Assembly: GCF_002797895.1 (NCBI RefSeq)
Contig: NZ_PGES01000001.1
Span: forward strand, 3,410,001 to 3,474,000
DNA: 64,000 nt
Direction: 5' to 3'
Source: Janthinobacterium sp. 67
Lineage (GTDB): Bacteria > Pseudomonadota > Gammaproteobacteria > Burkholderiales > Burkholderiaceae_D
This document shows, piece after piece, positions 28,701 through 64,000 of the stretch. Made by a program: the position numbers and the translations under genes. The notes under the pieces were generated by a model, which ran no database searches, was not told the origin of the DNA, and was given only the letters and a program-made list of their open reading frames with translations. Numbering within the stretch: the stretch's first letter is position 1; every line of letters starts with the position of its first letter.

Positions 28701-29164
28701 TGATGTACCAGACCATCGCCAGCTGGCTGCCGGCGCGCGAGACGCCACCGCCACCGGCGCGCAGCCGTGCCGCCCCAGCCTTCAAGACCACCCTGGCGGG
28801 CGACCCGCAAGTGATCGACCTGTCCATCCTGGCCAAGTTGCTGGGCTACAACCCGGAAAAGGTGCGCAAGTTCGCCTTCAAGTTCCTGCAGACGACGCAG
28901 GATGGCTTCGGCGACATCGATGCGGCCCTGGCGCGCGGCGACGTGCACCAGGTGCGCGAACTGGGGCACCGCATCAAGTCGTCGGCGCGCACCGTGGGCG
29001 CCCTGGGGCTGGCCGACCTATGCCACAACCTGGAGACCCTGGCGCCGGGCGAACCGGCCGACGAGGCGGAGCGGGCGCGGCACATCGTGGCGCGCCTGTG
29101 GCCCCTGCTGGAACAGATTACCGAACAAATCATGAATAACACCAGCTTTGCCAATGACGATTAG
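25706..29164 (+). CDS. hybrid sensor histidine kinase with four PAS domains, receiver and HPt
   Basis: 1152 residues. An N-terminal hydrophobic part (about 40-75) may anchor it. Four PAS-type sensor domains follow (about 90-215, 225-345, 350-470, 475-595), each ending in a DITER/DISER-like motif. Kinase: phospho-acceptor His638 ([12 protein letters not shown]), then an ATP-binding domain. Receiver with Asp941 ([11 protein letters not shown]) and a C-terminal HPt with His1088 ([13 protein letters not shown]). All phosphorelay residues are present. Stimulus unknown. The start is uncertain between 25706 and ATGs at 25730 and 25826. The stand-alone receiver at 29235 follows 70 bases later and is a likely partner. 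Confidence 0.93.
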
Positions 29165-47067: not shown

Positions 47068-50000
47068 ATGATACCTGCCAGCGTCCAGCAGCTGTTTCAC
47101 CTTCCCGCCGATCCGGCCCAGCTGCATCACGGCCAGCATGCGCCGGGCCTGGTGCTGCTGTCGCTCGTGATCGCCATTTTCACATCGTGGATGGCTTTCC
47201 AGATGACGGCCTACAGCCGCGCGCAGGCGAGCATCAGCCGCCGCTTGCACTTGCTGTGCCTGCTGGCCGGCAGCCTGGCATTGGGCTGCGGCGTGTGGGC
47301 CATGCATTTCATCGGCATGCTGGCCTTCGAGCTGTGCACCAGCGTCGATTACGCCCCGGGCCTGACCTTGCTCTCCATCGTGCCCAGCGTGGCGGCCTCG
47401 TTCGTGGCCCTGGCCACCATCAGCCGGCGCGCCGTCACGGCGCCGCTGCTGCTGCGCAGCGGCCTGCTGGTGGGCCTGGGCATCGGCGCCATGCATTACA
47501 CGGGCATGCAGGCCATGCGCATGGGCCTGTCGCTGCGCTACGATCCGCTGCTGTTCGCGCTGTCGCTCGTCGTTGCCGTGGCGCTCGCCACCCTGGCCCT
47601 GTGGATACGTTTCGGCTTGCGCGGCTGGAGCAGCCGCGTGCCCTCGTCGCAGCGCACGCTGATCAGCGCCTGCGTCATGGGATGCGCAATTACCGGGATG
47701 CATTACATGGGCATGCAGGCGGCGCGCTTCGTGGGGACGATTCCCCCAGGCAATGATGCCGATGCCAACCGGCCCATGCTGGTGATCAGCGTGACCCTGC
47801 TGACCATCGCCCTGACGATCCTGGTGGCCTCGGCCGTGGGCACCCTGCGCTACCGCGAACTGTTCCGCCACCTGAATCAAAGCGAACACTGGACCCGTTC
47901 GCTGCTGACGAGCACGGTCGACGGCGTCATCACGATCGACCGGCAAGGCGGCATCGTCGACTTCAACGGCGCCGCCGAGCGCATCCTGGGCTGGCGAGCG
48001 GCGGAAATTGTCGGCCGCCATGTTAGCGTGCTGGTCAGCGACGTGCGCCAGTCGGAACAGCGCGGCCTGCTGCACTACCTGCGCACGGGCGAGGCTGGCG
48101 CTTTCCAGTCCAGCGAGGAAATCGTCTACCTGCGCAAGGATGGCGCACCGGTCGCCGTGCAGCGTTCGATGGCCAGCGCGCGCCTGGCCGACCAGGATTT
48201 GTATGTGCTGTTCATTACGGACATCAGCGAACGGCGCGCCATGCTGGCCGCCCTGCGCGAAAGCGAGCAGCAGTTGCGCTCGCTGATCGGCAATATCCCC
48301 GGCATCGCCTTTCGCTGCACCACGGCGGAAAACCAGCCCATGCTGTTCATCAGCGATGGCGTGGAAGCCGTCACCGGCTATCCTGCCGCCGACTTTCTCG
48401 GCGCCGCACCGCGCCGCAGCATCACGGGCCTGATCGCCAGCGAAGAGCGCGCCTACGTCGTCGATGTCTTCAACCGCAGCGTGGCCAGCGGCGAGCCCTA
48501 CCTGCTGGAATACCGGCTGCTGCATGCCGACGGCACGGCACGCTGGCTGTGGGAGCGGGGCACCGTCGTGCACGATGCGGCAGGCGCCGTGCGCTGGGTC
48601 GACGGCGTCATCCTCGACATCAGCGAACGGCGGCAAATGGAGGAAGACTTGCGCATGGCCAAGGAAAAAGCGGAGCTGGCGGCCGCCACGCGGGCCAGCT
48701 TTGTCGCCAACATGAGCCATGAAATCCGCACGCCGATGAATTCCATCCTCGGTTTTACCGATGTGCTGCTCGACTCGCCGCTGGCGCCGGAGCAGCGGCG
48801 CCACCTCAATACCGTGCGCCAGTCCGGCCGCTCGCTGTTGCGCCTGCTCAACGAAGTGCTCGATACGGCCAAGCTGGACAAGGGCGCCGTGGCGCTGGAA
48901 ATGCGCGACTACAGCCTGCTGGCGCTGGTCGACGAACTGGCGTCCACGTATGGCATCCATGCACGCAACAAGGGTTTGCGCATGGAGGTGCAGTACGATC
49001 CGCAACTGCCGGCCGTGCTGCATGGCGACGAATTGCGCATGCGGCAAGTGCTGGGCAACCTGCTCGACAACGCCATCAAGTTTACGCCCAGCGGCGGCGT
49101 CAGCCTGACGGCGCGCCTCGACGATGGCCAGCTGCACCTGCTGGTGCGGGACAGCGGCATCGGCATCCCTGCGGAGCGGCGCGACGCCATTTTCGATCCC
49201 TTCGTGCAAGCGGACGCTTCGACCACGCGGCGCTTTGGCGGCACGGGCCTGGGCACCACCATCAGCAGGCAGCTGGTGACCCTGATGCAGGGGCGCATCT
49301 GGGCCGACGCCGGCGTGCCGCACGGCAGCGTGTTCCACGTCATGCTGCCCTTGTTGCCGGCACGCCAGGCGGCGCTGCCTGCCAGCGAACGCCGCAGCGT
49401 GCGCCTGCCGCCCCTGCGCGTGCTGGCCGCCGACGACGTGCCGCAAAACCTGGAACTGCTGAGCCTTCTGCTGGGCAAGCGCGGCCACACGGTGGTCACG
49501 GCCGGCGACGGTGCGCAAGCCTTGCAGCTGGCGCAGCAGGACGACTTCGACATTCTGCTGGTGGACTTGCAAATGCCGCGCATGGATGGCCTGGCCGCCA
49601 CGCAAGCCATCCGTGCCGCCGCCCTGCGCGATGGCCGCCCGCGCGTGCCCGTGATCGCCATGACGGCCAGCGTGCTCGACGCGCACCGCAAGGCGGCGCG
49701 GGCGGCCGGCATGGACGGTTTCGCCACCAAGCCCGTCGAATGGCAGGCGCTGTCGCAGGAAATCGCCCGCGTACTGGGCCTGGCGGCGGAGCCGGCCGAT
49801 AACAGCCGCGCACCCGCTGGAGGAAGAGTGCTGCACCATGCGGGCGCCCTGCAGCGCTGGGCCGGCAACGACAGCGCCTACCGCACGGCGCTGGACCGTT
49901 TCGCACGCGAGCATCCCCGCCTGCCGCCTGCCCTGCAAGCCGCCATCGCGGCGCGCGACCACGAGACGCTCTTGTCGCAGAGTCACCGGCTGCGCGGCCT

Positions 50001-50412
50001 GGCGGCGAACCTCGGCCTGGAACAGCTGGCCGCCAGCCTGGCAACCCTGGAACAAGCGTGCGCCAGCCCCGGCCCCGCCACGGCACAGCAGCTCGACGCA
50101 ACGCTGGGCACGCTGCTGACACAATGGCCGGCGGCCCTGGCAGCCATCGCCCGGCTGGCGCCGCCGGCATTGCCGGCGGCAACGGAGAATGCCATCGACG
50201 CGCCCGCCGCCCGGCAAGCGGCCAGTACCCTGCTGCACGCCTTGCGGCGCGGCGAACTCGATGACGCGGCGCAAGCACAGTTGCAGCAGGCCATGGGGGC
50301 GCAAGCGGATGCGCTGGCGCCGCTGCTACACGCCATCGACGACTTTGATTTCCCCCTGGCACAGTCGCTACTGGACGGCTTGCTGGCCACTTTCACCCCG
50401 GAGTCCCCATGA
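47068..50412 (+). CDS. MHYT-domain hybrid sensor histidine kinase
   Basis: 1114 residues. Three MHYT motifs in a seven-helix membrane sensor (MHFIGM, MHYTGM, MHYMGM), proposed to bind copper and sense O2, CO or NO. Two PAS domains follow (about 275-395 and 405-520), kinase with His551 ([12 protein letters not shown]) and ATP-binding domain, receiver Asp833 (LVDLQMPRMDG) and HPt His973 (SHRLRGLAANLG). The last ~100 residues are Ala/Gln-rich. ATG at 47068 is used. It overlaps the HD-GYP gene by four bases, so the phosphate is likely passed to it. Confidence 0.93.
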   Translation: MIPASVQQLFHLPADPAQLHHGQHAPGLVLLSLVIAIFTSWMAFQMTAYSRAQASISRRLHLLCLLAGSLALGCGVWAMHFIGMLAFELCTSVDYAPGLTLLSIVPSVAASFVALATISRRAVTAPLLLRSGLLVGLGIGAMHYTGMQAMRMGLSLRYDPLLFALSLVVAVALATLALWIRFGLRGWSSRVPSSQRTLISACVMGCAITGMHYMGMQAARFVGTIPPGNDADANRPMLVISVTLLTIALTILVASAVGTLRYRELFRHLNQSEHWTRSLLTSTVDGVITIDRQGGIVDFNGAAERILGWRAAEIVGRHVSVLVSDVRQSEQRGLLHYLRTGEAGAFQSSEEIVYLRKDGAPVAVQRSMASARLADQDLYVLFITDISERRAMLAALRESEQQLRSLIGNIPGIAFRCTTAENQPMLFISDGVEAVTGYPAADFLGAAPRRSITGLIASEERAYVVDVFNRSVASGEPYLLEYRLLHADGTARWLWERGTVVHDAAGAVRWVDGVILDISERRQMEEDLRMAKEKAELAAATRASFVANMSHEIRTPMNSILGFTDVLLDSPLAPEQRRHLNTVRQSGRSLLRLLNEVLDTAKLDKGAVALEMRDYSLLALVDELASTYGIHARNKGLRMEVQYDPQLPAVLHGDELRMRQVLGNLLDNAIKFTPSGGVSLTARLDDGQLHLLVRDSGIGIPAERRDAIFDPFVQADASTTRRFGGTGLGTTISRQLVTLMQGRIWADAGVPHGSVFHVMLPLLPARQAALPASERRSVRLPPLRVLAADDVPQNLELLSLLLGKRGHTVVTAGDGAQALQLAQQDDFDILLVDLQMPRMDGLAATQAIRAAALRDGRPRVPVIAMTASVLDAHRKAARAAGMDGFATKPVEWQALSQEIARVLGLAAEPADNSRAPAGGRVLHHAGALQRWAGNDSAYRTALDRFAREHPRLPPALQAAIAARDHETLLSQSHRLRGLAANLGLEQLAASLATLEQACASPGPATAQQLDATLGTLLTQWPAALAAIARLAPPALPAATENAIDAPAARQAASTLLHALRRGELDDAAQAQLQQAMGAQADALAPLLHAIDDFDFPLAQSLLDGLLATFTPESP

Positions 50413-59080: not shown

Positions 59081-61669
59081 CTAGCGCACCGCCACCCGCG
59101 CCAGCCCCGGCTGGTTCACCATCCAGTAGTGCTGAAAGGCCAGGCGAATGTTGTCGCGCAGCTGGGTGTCGTCCCACGGTTTCGTATAGAAACGGTAGAT
59201 GGCGCCGCGGTTGATCGAGTCGAGCACGGCTTCCAGGCCCGTGTAGCCGGACAGGATGATGCGGATGGTTTCCGGGTACAGCTCCTTCACCTTGCTGAGG
59301 AACTCCGTGCCGCTCATGCTCGGCATGCGCTGGTCGCAGACGATCACGTGCACCCGGTGCAGGGCCAGCATTTCAAAGCCCTCGGCCGGCGTGCTGGCCG
59401 TGAGGATCTGATAGCCCTCGGGACGGAACAGGCGATGCAAGGACGACAGCACGTTGACGTCGTCGTCGACGATGAGCAGCGTCTGCGCGGGCTGCGCGGC
59501 CGGGTCGTGGCCGGGCGGCAGGCCGGCGCCGGCGACGATCATCTGCCCCAGTTCCAGCGCCGGCAAAGAACGGCTGAAATAAAAGCCCTGGATCTCGTCG
59601 CAGCGGTTGCGCCGCAGGTATTCGAGCTGCGGGCGCGATTCCACGCCCTCGGCCACGACGCTCAGTTTCAGGCTGTGCGCCATGCTGACGATGGCCAGCG
59701 CGATGGCCGCGTCGTTCGGGTTGCTGGTGATGTTGCGCACGAAGGCGATGTCGATTTTCAGCTTGTCGATGGGGAAGCGCTGCAGATACGCGAGACTGGA
59801 ATAACCGGTGCCGAAATCGTCGATCGCCACCTTCACGCCGATTTTCTTCAATTTGCCCAGCACGACGATGGTGCGCTCGGCGTTCGACATCAGCGCCGTT
59901 TCCGTCAGTTCCAGTTCCAGCAGTTCCGGCGCCACGTTGTACTGCGCCAGCGCGCGCGTCACTTCGCTTTCCAGGTCGCCTTCGGCAAACTGGCGGCTCG
60001 ACACGTTCACGGCCACGTGCACGGGTCCCACCTCGCTGTCGCGCCACTCGGCGATCTGGCGGCAGGCGGCCTGGATCACCCAGGCGCCCACGCGCACGAT
60101 CAGGCCCGTGTCTTCCAGCACGGGCACGAATTCGGCCGGCGCCACCAGGCCGTAGCCGGGACGGCGCCAGCGCAGCAGCGCCTCGACGCCGCTGATGCGG
60201 CCCGTGCGCAAATCCACCTTCGGCTGGTAGTACAGGATGAACTGATCGTGTTCGAGCGCATGGCGCAGCGCCAGTTCCAGGTCCAGGCGCGCCAGCACCT
60301 GCACGTTCATGCCGGCCGTGAAAAAGCGGTAGCCGTCGCGGCCCGCCTGCTTGGCGCCGCCCATGGCCGTATTGGCGTATTTGATCAGGGTTTCCGGGTC
60401 GGTGGCGTCGTCCGGATACATGGCGATGCCGATGCTGGCCGTCAGGGTGGCCGCGTGGCCGCGCAAGTCGAATGGCGCGCGCAGGGCTTCGCGCACCTGG
60501 TTGGCCACGGCCACGGCTTCCTGCTGGTTGCGGCTCATGGTCAATATGAGCGCGAATTCGTCGTTGCCCAATCGACCCACCGTGTCGCGCAGGCGCACGC
60601 ATTCGACCAGGCGGTTGCTGAACTGGCGCAGCAATTCGTCGCCCAGCGCCGCGCCCAAGGTGTCGTTGATGCTTTTGAAACGGTCGAGCGCGATGAACAG
60701 CACCACGATGCGCCAGCTTTTTTCCTGCGCCAGTTCCACGGCCTGGGCCAGGGTCTGGTAGAACAGGCTGCGGTTCGGCAATCCCGTCAAGCCATCGTAA
60801 TGGGCCAGGTGCTTGAGGCGCTCCTGCGCCTGGCGCCGCTCGCTGATGTCGCGCGCCACGGCGATCAGCAGCAGGCCGCCCGCGCCAGGGGTGCCAGAAT
60901 AGCCGCCCGTCACGGGCGCTTGCGCATACCAGTGCCAGCCCAGTTCCACGGGGATCAGGCTCAGGTCGCGCCGCACCAGTTCGCATTCCGTCACTTCCGT
61001 GGCCAGATGGGCCGGGCCGCCCGGCAGCGCGGCCAGCGGCGGAGCCGGCGGCGATGGCAGCAAGGTGCCCGGCGCCAGCGCCAGCAATTCGTTGCGCGCA
61101 TAGCCGAGCAGGCGGCAAGCGCCGTCGTTGACGTCGACCAGGGTCATGCCCAGCACGTCGACGAGGAAAATGGCGTCCGTGGTGGCGTCCATGGCGCCGC
61201 GAAAGCGCTGCAGTTCGGCCGTGCGCTGGCCCACCGTGCGTTCGAGCAGGGTGTTGTAGTGGCGCGCGGCGCGGTGCAGCAGCCGCACTTCGAGCATGTT
61301 GCGGATGCGCGTGAGCACTTCGAGCGCGTCGAAGGGCTTGCTGATGAAATCGCGCGCGCCCGCTTCCAGCGCCGCCAGCTTGGCGTCCGGATCGGCGGCG
61401 ATCACCAGCACGGGCAGGTAGCCTTCCAGTTCCAGCGGACGCAAGGCATCCATCACCTCGTAGCCGCTCATGCCCGGCATCACCAGGTCGAGGATGATCA
61501 GGTCGAACTGGTGGTGCTGGTGCAGGCCGGCCACGGCGCGCGCGTCGAGGGTGCTGGTGCAGGCCGTGTAGCCGCCGCTGTGCAGCAAATGCTCGAGCAG
61601 GCGCAGATTGACTTCCTGGTCGTCGACGATGAGGATTTTCGCCGCGTAGATATCGGCCTGGCTGATCAT
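59081..61669 (-). CDS. REC-PAS-GGDEF-EAL-REC protein
   Basis: 862 residues. N-terminal receiver with Asp61 (IILDLVMPGMSG), PAS (about 155-280), GGDEF (about 290-455), EAL (about 460-705) and C-terminal receiver with Asp779 (VCDQRMPSMSG). The GGDEF motif reads RLGNDEF (368-372), and the metal-binding Asp in the LFIALD segment is Ala327, so it is probably inactive. EAL residues are kept: EALLRW (Glu496), NVSS, ELTET, DDFGTGYSS, KID, AEGVE and QGFYFS, so it should hydrolyse c-di-GMP. Overlaps the hybrid kinase by four bases. Confidence 0.92.
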   Translation of the reverse strand: MISQADIYAAKILIVDDQEVNLRLLEHLLHSGGYTACTSTLDARAVAGLHQHHQFDLIILDLVMPGMSGYEVMDALRPLELEGYLPVLVIAADPDAKLAALEAGARDFISKPFDALEVLTRIRNMLEVRLLHRAARHYNTLLERTVGQRTAELQRFRGAMDATTDAIFLVDVLGMTLVDVNDGACRLLGYARNELLALAPGTLLPSPPAPPLAALPGGPAHLATEVTECELVRRDLSLIPVELGWHWYAQAPVTGGYSGTPGAGGLLLIAVARDISERRQAQERLKHLAHYDGLTGLPNRSLFYQTLAQAVELAQEKSWRIVVLFIALDRFKSINDTLGAALGDELLRQFSNRLVECVRLRDTVGRLGNDEFALILTMSRNQQEAVAVANQVREALRAPFDLRGHAATLTASIGIAMYPDDATDPETLIKYANTAMGGAKQAGRDGYRFFTAGMNVQVLARLDLELALRHALEHDQFILYYQPKVDLRTGRISGVEALLRWRRPGYGLVAPAEFVPVLEDTGLIVRVGAWVIQAACRQIAEWRDSEVGPVHVAVNVSSRQFAEGDLESEVTRALAQYNVAPELLELELTETALMSNAERTIVVLGKLKKIGVKVAIDDFGTGYSSLAYLQRFPIDKLKIDIAFVRNITSNPNDAAIALAIVSMAHSLKLSVVAEGVESRPQLEYLRRNRCDEIQGFYFSRSLPALELGQMIVAGAGLPPGHDPAAQPAQTLLIVDDDVNVLSSLHRLFRPEGYQILTASTPAEGFEMLALHRVHVIVCDQRMPSMSGTEFLSKVKELYPETIRIILSGYTGLEAVLDSINRGAIYRFYTKPWDDTQLRDNIRLAFQHYWMVNQPGLARVAVR

Positions 61670-63696
61670 GGCGCGCCCGTTCCCTTCTGCCGGCGCTGCT
61701 GCGCCACATAGGCCAGGGTGCTGTTGATCGCCTCGGTAAATTCATCGAGGTTGATCGGCTTGGTCAGGTAGCGGTAAAAGCCCAGCGCCAGGCTGCGCTC
61801 GACGTCGCCCGGCATGGCGTTGGCCGTCAGGGCGATGACGGGAATGTGCGCCGTGCGGGGATCGGCGCGCAGCAGTTTCAGCGCGTCCGTGCCATTCACG
61901 TTCGGCAGGTTGATGTCCATCAGGATCAGCTGCGGCAGGTGCGCGCGCGCCATTTCCACGCCCAGGCGGCCATCGGTGGCCGTCAGCAGCTGCAATTGCG
62001 GGCAGTAGCGCACGATTTCCTCGACCAGGGTCAGGTTGGCGGGATTGTCTTCCACGTACAGCAAGGTCACGGGCGCGCTGTGCTCGAGCAGCGCGCCGGC
62101 CAGGTCCGGCCGCGGCAAGGCCAGCGTGTCGGGCGCGGGCAAGGCGTCGACCACGCGCAGCTCGATCCAGAAGGTGCTGCCCTCGCCGGGCGCGCTGGTC
62201 ACGCCGATGCTGCCATCCATCAGCTCGACCAGGCGCTTGGTGACCACCAGGCCGATGCCGCTGCCCTCTTCCGTGCCGCCTTCCTGCCCCAGCCGGTTGA
62301 AAGGCTGGAACAGCAGCGCCACCTGTTCGCCATCGAGGCCGATGCCCGTGTCGCGCACGCTGATGCGCACCCGGCCGCCGGCCTGCGGCGCGCAATCGAT
62401 GGCCACCTGACCGTGCTCGCGGTTGTACTTGAGCGCATTCGACAGCAGGTTCAACAGGATTTGCTTGAGGCGCGTGCGGTCGGCCAGCACGTTCAGCGGG
62501 CAGGCGTCGGGGAAGGTCATGCCGATGCCGCGCTGGCTGGCCAGCGGCGCGATCATGTCACGGCATTCCTGCAAGATGGCGTCCAGGCCCACCGGTTCGA
62601 GCGACAGGCTGACCGTGCCCGATTCCACCTTGGCCAGGTCGAGGATTTCGTTGATCAGTGTCAGCAGGTGCCGCCCCGATTTCAGGATATGGCCGGCGAA
62701 CTCCTTCTTTTGCTCCAGGGTCGACGGCAGGCGGTCGGAACTGAGGATTTGCGCAAAGCCCAGGATGGCGTTGAGCGGCGTGCGCAATTCATGGCTCATC
62801 GACGACAAAAAGGCCGACTTGGCGTAGTTGGCGCTGCGCGCCTCTTCCATCGCCATGGCCAGTTCGCCATTCGTCATTTCCAGCTGCATCGTGCGTTCGT
62901 GCACGCGCACTTCCAGCTCCTGGTTCAGGCGCATGACTTCCTGCTGCGCCTCGGTGCGCTGCTCGCCTTCGCGCGCCAGCTCGCCGTTCGAGCGCTCCAG
63001 TGCCTGCGTGCGCAGCTCGATCTCGGCCAGCATCTTGTTGAAGGAATCGACCAGCTGCGCCACTTCGTCGACGCTGAGCTTGCGCGCGCGGCGCGAATAG
63101 TCGCCCGTCTCGATCACTTCGCGCGCCACGTCGGCGATATCGAGGATGGGCTGGGTGATCACGTAATCGAGGCGGCGCAGCAGCAGCAAGGCCACCAGCA
63201 GCGCCAGCACCGTCACGCCCAGCGCGATGGCCAGGTAATCGGCCGTGCGGCCGGCCAGCTCGTAGTCGGCACGCAGATACACGGTGCCCAGCAATTCGCC
63301 ATTGTCGACGATGGGCTTGAACAATTCGACGGATTTGCCGGCGATGCTGACGCCTTCCTTGCCCACTTTCGCCGGCAGCTCGCCCACCTGCTCGTTCGCG
63401 CGGTAGCTGGCAAACAGGCTGCCGTCGGCCTTGTACAGGGCGCCGGCCGTCACGCGCGGGCGGATGCGCATCAGGTTGAGGTTTTCCAGCGCCAGGCGCT
63501 CGTCGTCGAAGGCCAGCGCAGCCGAACTCATGTGCCCCAGCAGCTCGGCCTGGGTACTGATGTCGGCCACCAGGTTGCGGTGGTAGGCGCGCAAGTCGTA
63601 GACGACGATGGTGCCCAGCGAAATGACGAGGGCCACCAGGGTGGTCAGCAAGACCACCGACATCAGCTTGTGGCGGATGGAACGCAGTCTGATCAT
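61666..63696 (-). CDS. periplasmic-sensor hybrid histidine kinase (CHASE8-like)
   Basis: 676 residues. Two helices (about 12-33 and 155-175) flank a periplasmic domain resembling CHASE8 (LVADISTQAELLGHMSSAALAF) as found in YfiN-type proteins. HAMP, coiled coil, kinase His302 (SSMSHELRTPLNA), ATP-binding domain and receiver Asp594 (ILMDINLPNVNG). The YfiR gene's stop directly precedes its ATG. Downstream is the dual-receiver EAL protein, the natural phosphate target. Confidence 0.9.
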   Translation of the reverse strand: MIRLRSIRHKLMSVVLLTTLVALVISLGTIVVYDLRAYHRNLVADISTQAELLGHMSSAALAFDDERLALENLNLMRIRPRVTAGALYKADGSLFASYRANEQVGELPAKVGKEGVSIAGKSVELFKPIVDNGELLGTVYLRADYELAGRTADYLAIALGVTVLALLVALLLLRRLDYVITQPILDIADVAREVIETGDYSRRARKLSVDEVAQLVDSFNKMLAEIELRTQALERSNGELAREGEQRTEAQQEVMRLNQELEVRVHERTMQLEMTNGELAMAMEEARSANYAKSAFLSSMSHELRTPLNAILGFAQILSSDRLPSTLEQKKEFAGHILKSGRHLLTLINEILDLAKVESGTVSLSLEPVGLDAILQECRDMIAPLASQRGIGMTFPDACPLNVLADRTRLKQILLNLLSNALKYNREHGQVAIDCAPQAGGRVRISVRDTGIGLDGEQVALLFQPFNRLGQEGGTEEGSGIGLVVTKRLVELMDGSIGVTSAPGEGSTFWIELRVVDALPAPDTLALPRPDLAGALLEHSAPVTLLYVEDNPANLTLVEEIVRYCPQLQLLTATDGRLGVEMARAHLPQLILMDINLPNVNGTDALKLLRADPRTAHIPVIALTANAMPGDVERSLALGFYRYLTKPINLDEFTEAINSTLAYVAQQRRQKGTGAP

Positions 63697-64000
63697 CTAG
63701 GCGCCCCCCGTCTGCACGCGGTAGGCGGCCAGCAGCATGCGCGCGCTGATGCGGATATGCGCCTGCGCCACGGGTTTCAGGGCCACGTCGAAACGCACCT
63801 TGTCGTCGGCCATCACAAAGTTGATCATGCTGCCCATCGCGTAGACCTCATCCGAATCGGACACCGTCAGCAACGCCAGGCCACGGCTGGCGGCCAGCAT
63901 CTCCTGCAGCGCCGTTTTCTCCAGCGCACCCAGGTACAGCACGTGCAGCCCGGCCAGCGCTTCGCCGCGGCGCACTTTTTTCACCTGCACGGCGCGGCCG
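63697..64000 (-). CDS. YfiR-like periplasmic regulator, C-terminal part
   Basis: Runs off the right edge; the last 100 residues are seen. LTVSDSDEVYAMGSMINFVMADDKVRFDVALKPVAQAHIRISARMLLAAYRV matches the end of YfiR/DUF4154 proteins, which sit in the periplasm and inhibit the sensor domain of YfiN. The stop TAG is directly followed by the kinase ATG. The GTG at 63990 is only an internal codon. The signal peptide and possible Cys lie outside the window. Confidence 0.8.
   Translation of the reverse strand, partial: GRAVQVKKVRRGEALAGLHVLYLGALEKTALQEMLAASRGLALLTVSDSDEVYAMGSMINFVMADDKVRFDVALKPVAQAHIRISARMLLAAYRVQTGGA

Follow-up and report, generated by a model that had tools for sequence, protein, structure and literature searches.

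In the YfiBNR and HmsCDE systems of Pseudomonas aeruginosa, Escherichia coli and Yersinia, a protein of the YfiR family is coupled to a CHASE8 partner carrying an A-x-x-F-x-D motif, and control of cyclic di-GMP (c-di-GMP) is presumed to be exerted from the periplasm. The same elements are found at the end of a 64,000-nucleotide stretch of the Janthinobacterium sp. 67 chromosome (contig NZ_PGES01000001.1, positions 3,410,001 to 3,474,000; the whole stretch is referred to as the window), where a yfiR-like gene is followed by genes for a CHASE8 hybrid histidine kinase and for a protein with a receiver (REC) domain at each end (REC-PAS-GGDEF-EAL-REC, hereafter the EAL protein). In contrast to the described systems, the locus encodes a hybrid kinase and a separate EAL protein instead of a diguanylate cyclase, there is no yfiB in the operon, and YfiR lacks the cysteines. 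The predicted enzyme output is opposite to that of classical YfiBNR, namely breakdown of c-di-GMP and not synthesis. We favour, with modest confidence, the reading that the operon is an envelope-to-cytoplasm switch in which YfiR gates the CHASE8 kinase, which in turn controls a c-di-GMP phosphodiesterase through its receivers.

Other described systems share parts of this arrangement. In systems of the RpfC-RpfG type, a hybrid kinase acts with a REC-HD-GYP protein. The locus resembles them in that the response regulator paired with the hybrid kinase is of the phosphodiesterase kind, and a Herminiimonas variant does have a REC-HD-GYP protein, but the sensor here is CHASE8 with YfiR. In LuxP-LuxQ, the hybrid kinase has a PAS-like domain and is driven by a periplasmic protein, as is presumed here, and LuxQ is among the fold matches of our kinase; in contrast, LuxP is a sugar-binding-type protein and the output is LuxU. 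RavR of Xanthomonas has the order GGDEF-EAL-REC and is not known to have an N-terminal receiver, so a protein with receivers at both ends does not share its layout. RavS/RavA-RavR is alike in that a kinase is paired with a protein that has a degenerate GGDEF, an active EAL and a receiver domain, and unlike in that excerpts of the source make no mention of YfiR or CHASE8 (PMC6707612; this and the other papers are cited throughout from excerpts unless stated otherwise). The coupling of YfiR to a kinase had been noted before. Distant YfiN homologues with GGDEF-EAL, Hpt or sensor-kinase outputs, among them a Thauera hybrid kinase, were described by Malone et al. 2012 (PMC3375315), and there too the neighbour of YfiR joins a YfiN-like periplasmic domain to a kinase. 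In contrast, a downstream phosphodiesterase and a joint loss are not described in the excerpts of that paper, its Table S4 aside, and the word TonB is absent from its main text. A search of open-licence articles in PubMed Central found no report of this three-gene operon or of a receptor link.

Three minus-strand genes occupy the last 4.9 kb of the window, two of them complete and one present as its 3′ half:

63697..64000, minus strand: YfiR/DUF4154 gene, 3′ part (PF13689, 130 bits; 204 amino acids in all; ATG outside, at window position 64311)
61666..63696, minus strand: hybrid histidine kinase of 676 amino acids, CHASE8-HAMP-HisKA-HATPase_c-REC (Pfam)
59081..61669, minus strand: REC-PAS-GGDEF-EAL-REC protein of 862 amino acids (Pfam: Response_reg twice, PAS_8, GGDEF, EAL)

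The preliminary description of this DNA had a yfiR-like gene followed without spacing by the gene for a CHASE8-like hybrid kinase. This was borne out, as the TAG stop codon of yfiR directly abuts the ATG of the kinase gene and the CHASE8 match of the kinase scores 50.5 bits (cut-off 27). The kinase gene and the EAL gene overlap in ATGA. The gene upstream of yfiR is divergent and the gene downstream of the EAL gene is convergent; we take them to be cinA-like and thiL-like, respectively. From three co-directional genes with genes of the other strand on either side, we infer that yfiR, the kinase gene and the EAL gene form one transcript. A scan of L003:2900-8700 for promoters and terminators gave no promoter-like sites and three terminator-like sites versus 4.1 expected.

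A standard yfiN next to this yfiR outside the window would have refuted the preliminary description. When the window was extended by 10 kb, the full start of yfiR was recovered and neither yfiN nor yfiB was found adjoining it. A standard YfiN partner at this position was rejected, as the neighbour is CHASE8-HAMP-HisKA-HATPase-REC and the upstream gene is divergent. A classical set of consecutive yfiR, yfiN and yfiB genes does lie near 315 kb of the same 6.19-Mb chromosome (L004), and the GGDEF signature of its yfiN is intact by eye. The query for yfiB, the gene of an OmpA-type lipoprotein, was taken from L004; it also matches yfiB as annotated in E. coli K-12, and it gave no match in L003. The window YfiR shares 26% identity with the classical copy, and its named relatives at 98% identity are from Janthinobacterium. 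In this genome the YfiR module described here serves in a second circuit alongside classical YfiBNR.

The order of the three genes was then sought in other genomes. The comparison covers 80 loci, those most similar to the window YfiR out of 223 relatives, which lean to close kin. Their domains were typed by phmmer against sequences from this analysis, the receptors with three queries only, and Pfam was applied to individual loci (L100, L116, L133, L112, L110, L132 and L043, a copy of L105). YfiR, the CHASE8 kinase and REC-PAS-GGDEF-EAL-REC follow each other, with no receptor gene, at 38 of the 80 loci, which belong without exception to Oxalobacteraceae genera or to unclassified kin. These 38 include L072, in which the kinase receiver is frame-broken. 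A CHASE8 kinase with a TonB-dependent receptor and no unbroken EAL gene of the window type was found at 27 loci (including L093, where the EAL gene is in two frames), and a CHASE8 kinase with neither at 11 (including L062, where the contig ends after REC-PAS). Three loci had a receptor and no kinase seen, and one, from Massilia arenosa (L088/L041), had a receptor, YfiR and the EAL gene without a kinase. Contigs C114 and C136 of Massilia arenosa carry two more YfiR matches, both with a CHASE8 match close by. In a further set of 15 family genomes, picked mostly for high YfiR scores, the EAL-protein orthologue and YfiR are separated by about 2.03 kb, which corresponds to the length of the kinase gene, in ten (G048, G005, G144, G067, G111, G138, G139, G011, G075 and G052); this layout was not seen in G072, G113, G125, G002 and G058. 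Because the order recurs across genera, the arrangement goes beyond chance.

The kinase carries the following domains:

63274..63579, minus strand: CHASE8 periplasmic domain, residues 40-141, with the motif SAALAFDD (Pfam, 50.5 bits; AlphaFold)
63016..63159, minus strand: HAMP, residues 180-227 (Pfam)
62617..62823, minus strand: HisKA, phospho-His 302, residues 292-360 (Pfam and alignment)
62152..62481, minus strand: HATPase_c, residues 406-515 (Pfam)
61723..62061, minus strand: kinase receiver, Asp-594, residues 546-658 (Pfam and alignment)

All hallmarks of a hybrid kinase, the H-box histidine, the ATP-binding domain and the receiver aspartate, are present. The histidine is kept in 76/76 kinases of the related loci, and the receiver aspartate in 65 of 76 rows, the other 11 being gaps. 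In the periplasmic domain the motif A60-L-x-F63-x-D65, whose phenylalanine and aspartate are found in 76/76 kinases, lines up with A-V-V-F-x-D of YfiN and of E. coli DgcN. The A-V-V-F motif of YfiN was tied to YfiR binding by Malone et al. 2012 (PMC3375315). The AlphaFold model of kinase residues 1-238 (mean predicted local distance difference test score, pLDDT, 86) shows a five-strand PAS-like domain between two long helices, followed by a HAMP-like part. Its fold matches include the periplasmic domains of WalK, CitA, LapD-type proteins and LuxQ; a solved YfiN periplasmic domain was not among the fold matches listed, which excludes nothing. Together the Pfam match and the PAS-like fold agree with the CHASE8-like domain expected from the sequence. 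An Hpt domain, which a four-step phosphorelay contained in the operon would need, was not matched by Pfam in the three proteins, and 24 Hpt matches were found elsewhere in the genome, 23 of them over the cut-off and three in frames under 250 amino acids. Two Hpt matches lie in the window itself, at 28883-29110 and 49891-50148, in frames of 1155 and 1137 amino acids that possibly encode large hybrid kinases.

The pairing of YfiR with CHASE8 was followed in 40 Janthinobacterium genomes. Five of them (G160, G161, G166, G168 and G174) have no kinase orthologue at the locus; partial close EAL matches were found in G161 and G168. Among the remaining 35, 31 have both YfiR and CHASE8, and four (G072, G156, G162 and G170) have neither. 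YfiR is in one piece at 69% identity or more in 29 of the 31, in two overlapping, frame-broken pieces in G150 and in two diverged pieces in G152, and in all 31 the kinase matches from its first residues, CHASE8 included. In the four genomes without a YfiR match, the first membrane helix of the kinase runs into the second with CHASE8 missing, and a Pfam profile search of the G072 genome likewise found no YfiR. Since YfiR and CHASE8 are missing together, the simplest reading of these sequences is that the partner of YfiR is the CHASE8 domain of this kinase. Fisher's test for the joint absence gave 1.9e-5, for genomes that are not independent. In a tree, three of the YfiR-less genomes form one group, and the fourth is placed close to it with weak support. 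Janthinobacterium genomes lacking YfiR and CHASE8 offer natural deletion controls.

All four YfiR-less genomes keep the EAL gene, that of G156 without REC1, and in three of them the kinase's own receiver is lost or broken. The ratio of nonsynonymous to synonymous substitution rates (dN/dS), in pairwise values that include the time before any loss, is 0.21-0.29 for the kinase core among the four (5 pairs) versus 0.14-0.18 in 4 pairs with YfiR, and 0.07-0.12 for the EAL domain among the four. The EAL protein might act alone or with other kinases, having only its transcription in common with YfiR and the kinase, as retention of its gene in these genomes without YfiR and CHASE8, and in Massilia arenosa without a kinase, would allow. 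We consider this quite improbable; in the four genomes the kinase core still adjoins the EAL gene, at the pairwise dN/dS given above.

The EAL protein is built as follows:

61304..61636, minus strand: REC1, Asp-61, residues 12-122 (Pfam and alignment)
61043..61210, minus strand: PAS_8 match, residues 154-209 (Pfam)
60335..60805, minus strand: GGDEF without the first metal aspartate (A327), signature GNDEF, residues 289-445 (Pfam and alignment)
59570..60271, minus strand: EAL with a complete catalytic motif set, residues 467-700 (Pfam and alignment)
59135..59482, minus strand: REC2, Asp-779, about residues 730-845 (Pfam and alignment)

Residues were counted in 40 EAL proteins, from the window, the 38 three-gene loci and L088. 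The position of the first metal aspartate of GGDEF (Ala-327 here), placed by comparison with PleD, holds no aspartate in any of the 40 (alanine in 25, glycine in 11, threonine in 4). The signature is GNDEF in 15, including the window, and GGDEF in 25. In contrast to a diguanylate cyclase, which has both metal acids and a GGDEF or GGEEF signature, the protein lacks part of this set, and a bifunctional GGDEF-EAL enzyme was rejected, as the first metal aspartate is gone. At what we take to be the catalytic positions of known EAL enzymes, the window protein has E496, N555, E587, E590, D617, D618, K638, E674 and Q694, and the positions checked are invariant in 40/40. The EAL domain is under strong constraint, with a dN/dS of 0.03-0.12 in 10 pairs. 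REC1 has Asp-61, the acidic pair and the lysine in 40/40, and REC2 has its lysine in 40/40 and Asp-779 in 39/40, the exception being L072 with a glutamate. In a full-length model of the EAL protein (pLDDT 78; predicted template modelling score 0.46) the packing of the domains is not trusted. The third protein is probably a c-di-GMP phosphodiesterase in which a catalytically dead GGDEF domain would have a regulatory role, and the earlier account of it, with receivers at both ends, a GGDEF domain missing its metal aspartate and an apparently complete EAL domain, agrees with the Pfam matches and the residue check. In J. lividum PAMC 25724 (L072/L164), the glutamate in place of the REC2 phospho-aspartate and the frame-broken kinase receiver occur in the same genome.

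Several relatives have another phosphodiesterase-type regulator in the third position. In a Herminiimonas metagenome-assembled genome (MAG) the third gene encodes a REC-HD-GYP protein that has the HDIGK and GYP motifs. In a tree of 37 chosen receivers with long branches, the receiver of this protein falls with REC1 (60% identity, support 93/96) and not with REC2 or the kinase receiver, so that HD-GYP and EAL, two unrelated domains for c-di-GMP degradation, occur on the same type of receiver and after the same type of kinase. In the Rhodanobacter locus L116 a kinase with REC and Hpt is followed by a REC-EAL gene (Pfam), and L130 resembles it by phmmer. At five MAG loci from betaproteobacteria the kinase, in which no receiver was detected, precedes a GGDEF-EAL protein (L101 ends at the contig end); the GGDEF-EAL protein of L100, the sole one of the five run under Pfam, has an N-terminal REC. 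Many kinase loci among the 80 have no phosphodiesterase domain detected nearby. The HD-GYP and REC-EAL swaps support c-di-GMP breakdown as the probable output here and REC1 as the receiver probably shared across outputs. They also sit well with the proposal that the kinase feeds an EAL-type output and not a cyclase.

In the switch that we favour, periplasmic YfiR would contact the CHASE8 domain of the kinase at the hydrophobic motif used by YfiN, and would set the activity of the kinase, most likely by holding it off as it does YfiN. Release of YfiR would allow autophosphorylation at His-302, and the phosphate would pass to the receivers of the EAL protein, REC1 first, either directly or via the kinase receiver and an Hpt protein encoded elsewhere. 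Phosphorylation of the receivers would then change the activity or the placing of the EAL phosphodiesterase.

Several observations weigh against this switch. In Massilia arenosa YfiR adjoins the EAL gene with no kinase between them. The grouping of the four YfiR-less genomes points to one or two loss events, and the four joint absences may thus count as one or two. The role of REC1 may be fading in Janthinobacterium, as Ala-91 replaces threonine in 14/40 proteins (the window and 13 Janthinobacterium loci; the other 26 have threonine) and one genome lacks REC1. A BLASTP search of the N-terminal part of the kinase against the genome's own YfiN gave no alignment, and the link is by profile. With four CHASE8 matches versus two YfiR genes in the genome, CHASE8 can exist without YfiR, and the HD-GYP swap is known from one MAG. 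Phosphorylation of RavR, with which the EAL protein has the receiver, the degenerate GGDEF and the active EAL in common, left the phosphodiesterase activity unchanged (PMC6707612). The receivers could then act as a phosphate sink as in RavS-RavR, draining the kinase, with the EAL domain not set by phosphorylation and the real output being another regulator. We regard such a sink as rather unlikely, as some relatives' regulators bear an N-terminal receiver on HD-GYP or EAL, which is a plain activation layout.

The preliminary description further proposed a redox or envelope signal at the periplasmic end. Positions 63697-63999 of the window encode the last 100 codons and the stop of YfiR, and the gene reaches L003:8312 (window 64311), 311 bases outside. 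This start was chosen because, in a comparison of the window with 14 Janthinobacterium loci (15 sequences in all), only after that ATG do indels become multiples of three. The 204-residue protein has a signal peptide (by eye), matches PF13689 with 130 bits (cut-off 24.9), and its Phe-130 aligns with Phe-162 of P. aeruginosa YfiR and is invariant in 19/19. P. aeruginosa YfiR has the disulfides Cys71-Cys110 and Cys145-Cys152 (PMC4655355); all four positions are replaced in the window YfiR (0/4), and its mature chain has no cysteines. The YfiR cores of the 80 related loci, 76 of them beside a CHASE8 kinase, have none in 64 and one in 16, versus four in 11/12 YfiB-type loci (two in one); those of the receptor-plus-GGDEF-EAL type have two in 9/10 and four in one. 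Disulfide sensing by YfiR was rejected on these counts, and the disulfide redox idea does not carry over. Release of the kinase through reductive unfolding of YfiR in the periplasm, on the pattern reported for four-cysteine YfiR/HmsC (PMC3375315, PMC5550408), is thus very improbable here. This is a kinase-type YfiR without the cysteines underlying the redox model.

A different input is suggested by the relatives. At 30 of the 80 loci the first domain detected upstream of YfiR, within 3.5 kb, is that of a TonB-dependent receptor, and at one more locus the receptor lies downstream; five of the receptor proteins were confirmed by Pfam. The upstream gene in so many relatives suggests, at the level of gene order, an outer-membrane input, and it suggests a testable answer to what feeds a kinase-type YfiR. 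YfiR could then be an activator or ligand carrier of the kinase, and not a repressor, switched on by the receptor or a ligand. Such a role would fit the fold of the kinase domain, which is similar to that of CitA and other ligand-binding PAS domains and to that of LuxQ, a kinase under the control of a periplasmic partner. We lean against it, while giving it some weight: the contact motif of YfiN, where YfiR represses, is kept in the kinase, and constraint on the EAL domain where YfiR is gone is easier to explain if the output stays on once YfiR is lost. A wider idea, which we put forward tentatively and with more doubt than belief, is that YfiR is a general periplasmic adaptor linking a TonB-dependent outer-membrane receptor to CHASE8 proteins. 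Its disulfide-free branch would gate a hybrid kinase that switches c-di-GMP breakdown via interchangeable phosphodiesterase regulators on one receiver, the Oxalobacteraceae would mostly have shed the receptor gene and added a second receiver, and the receptor, not redox, would be the sensor.

A third YfiR layout, with a TonB-dependent receptor, a YfiR that mostly has two cysteines and a CHASE8-GGDEF-EAL protein, was seen at 10 of 20 loci (L149-L153 and L155-L159; CHASE8 was not detected by phmmer in L152, and EAL is in another frame in L155). The Janthinobacterium sp. 67 genome itself encodes a CHASE8-GGDEF-EAL protein without an adjoining YfiR (L172:4557-6449). It also has a second CHASE8 hybrid kinase, of 982 amino acids (34 bits), with Hpt in frame and followed by a REC-GGDEF-EAL gene (L173:204-5313, about 5.913-5.918 Mb); the only two YfiR matches of the genome lie away from it. 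Near the operon, beyond the cinA-like gene, lies a gene for a TPR-GGDEF protein (L003:9007-10884), and a GGDEF domain was detected upstream in 14 of 15 Janthinobacterium loci, the fifteenth locus being cut short.

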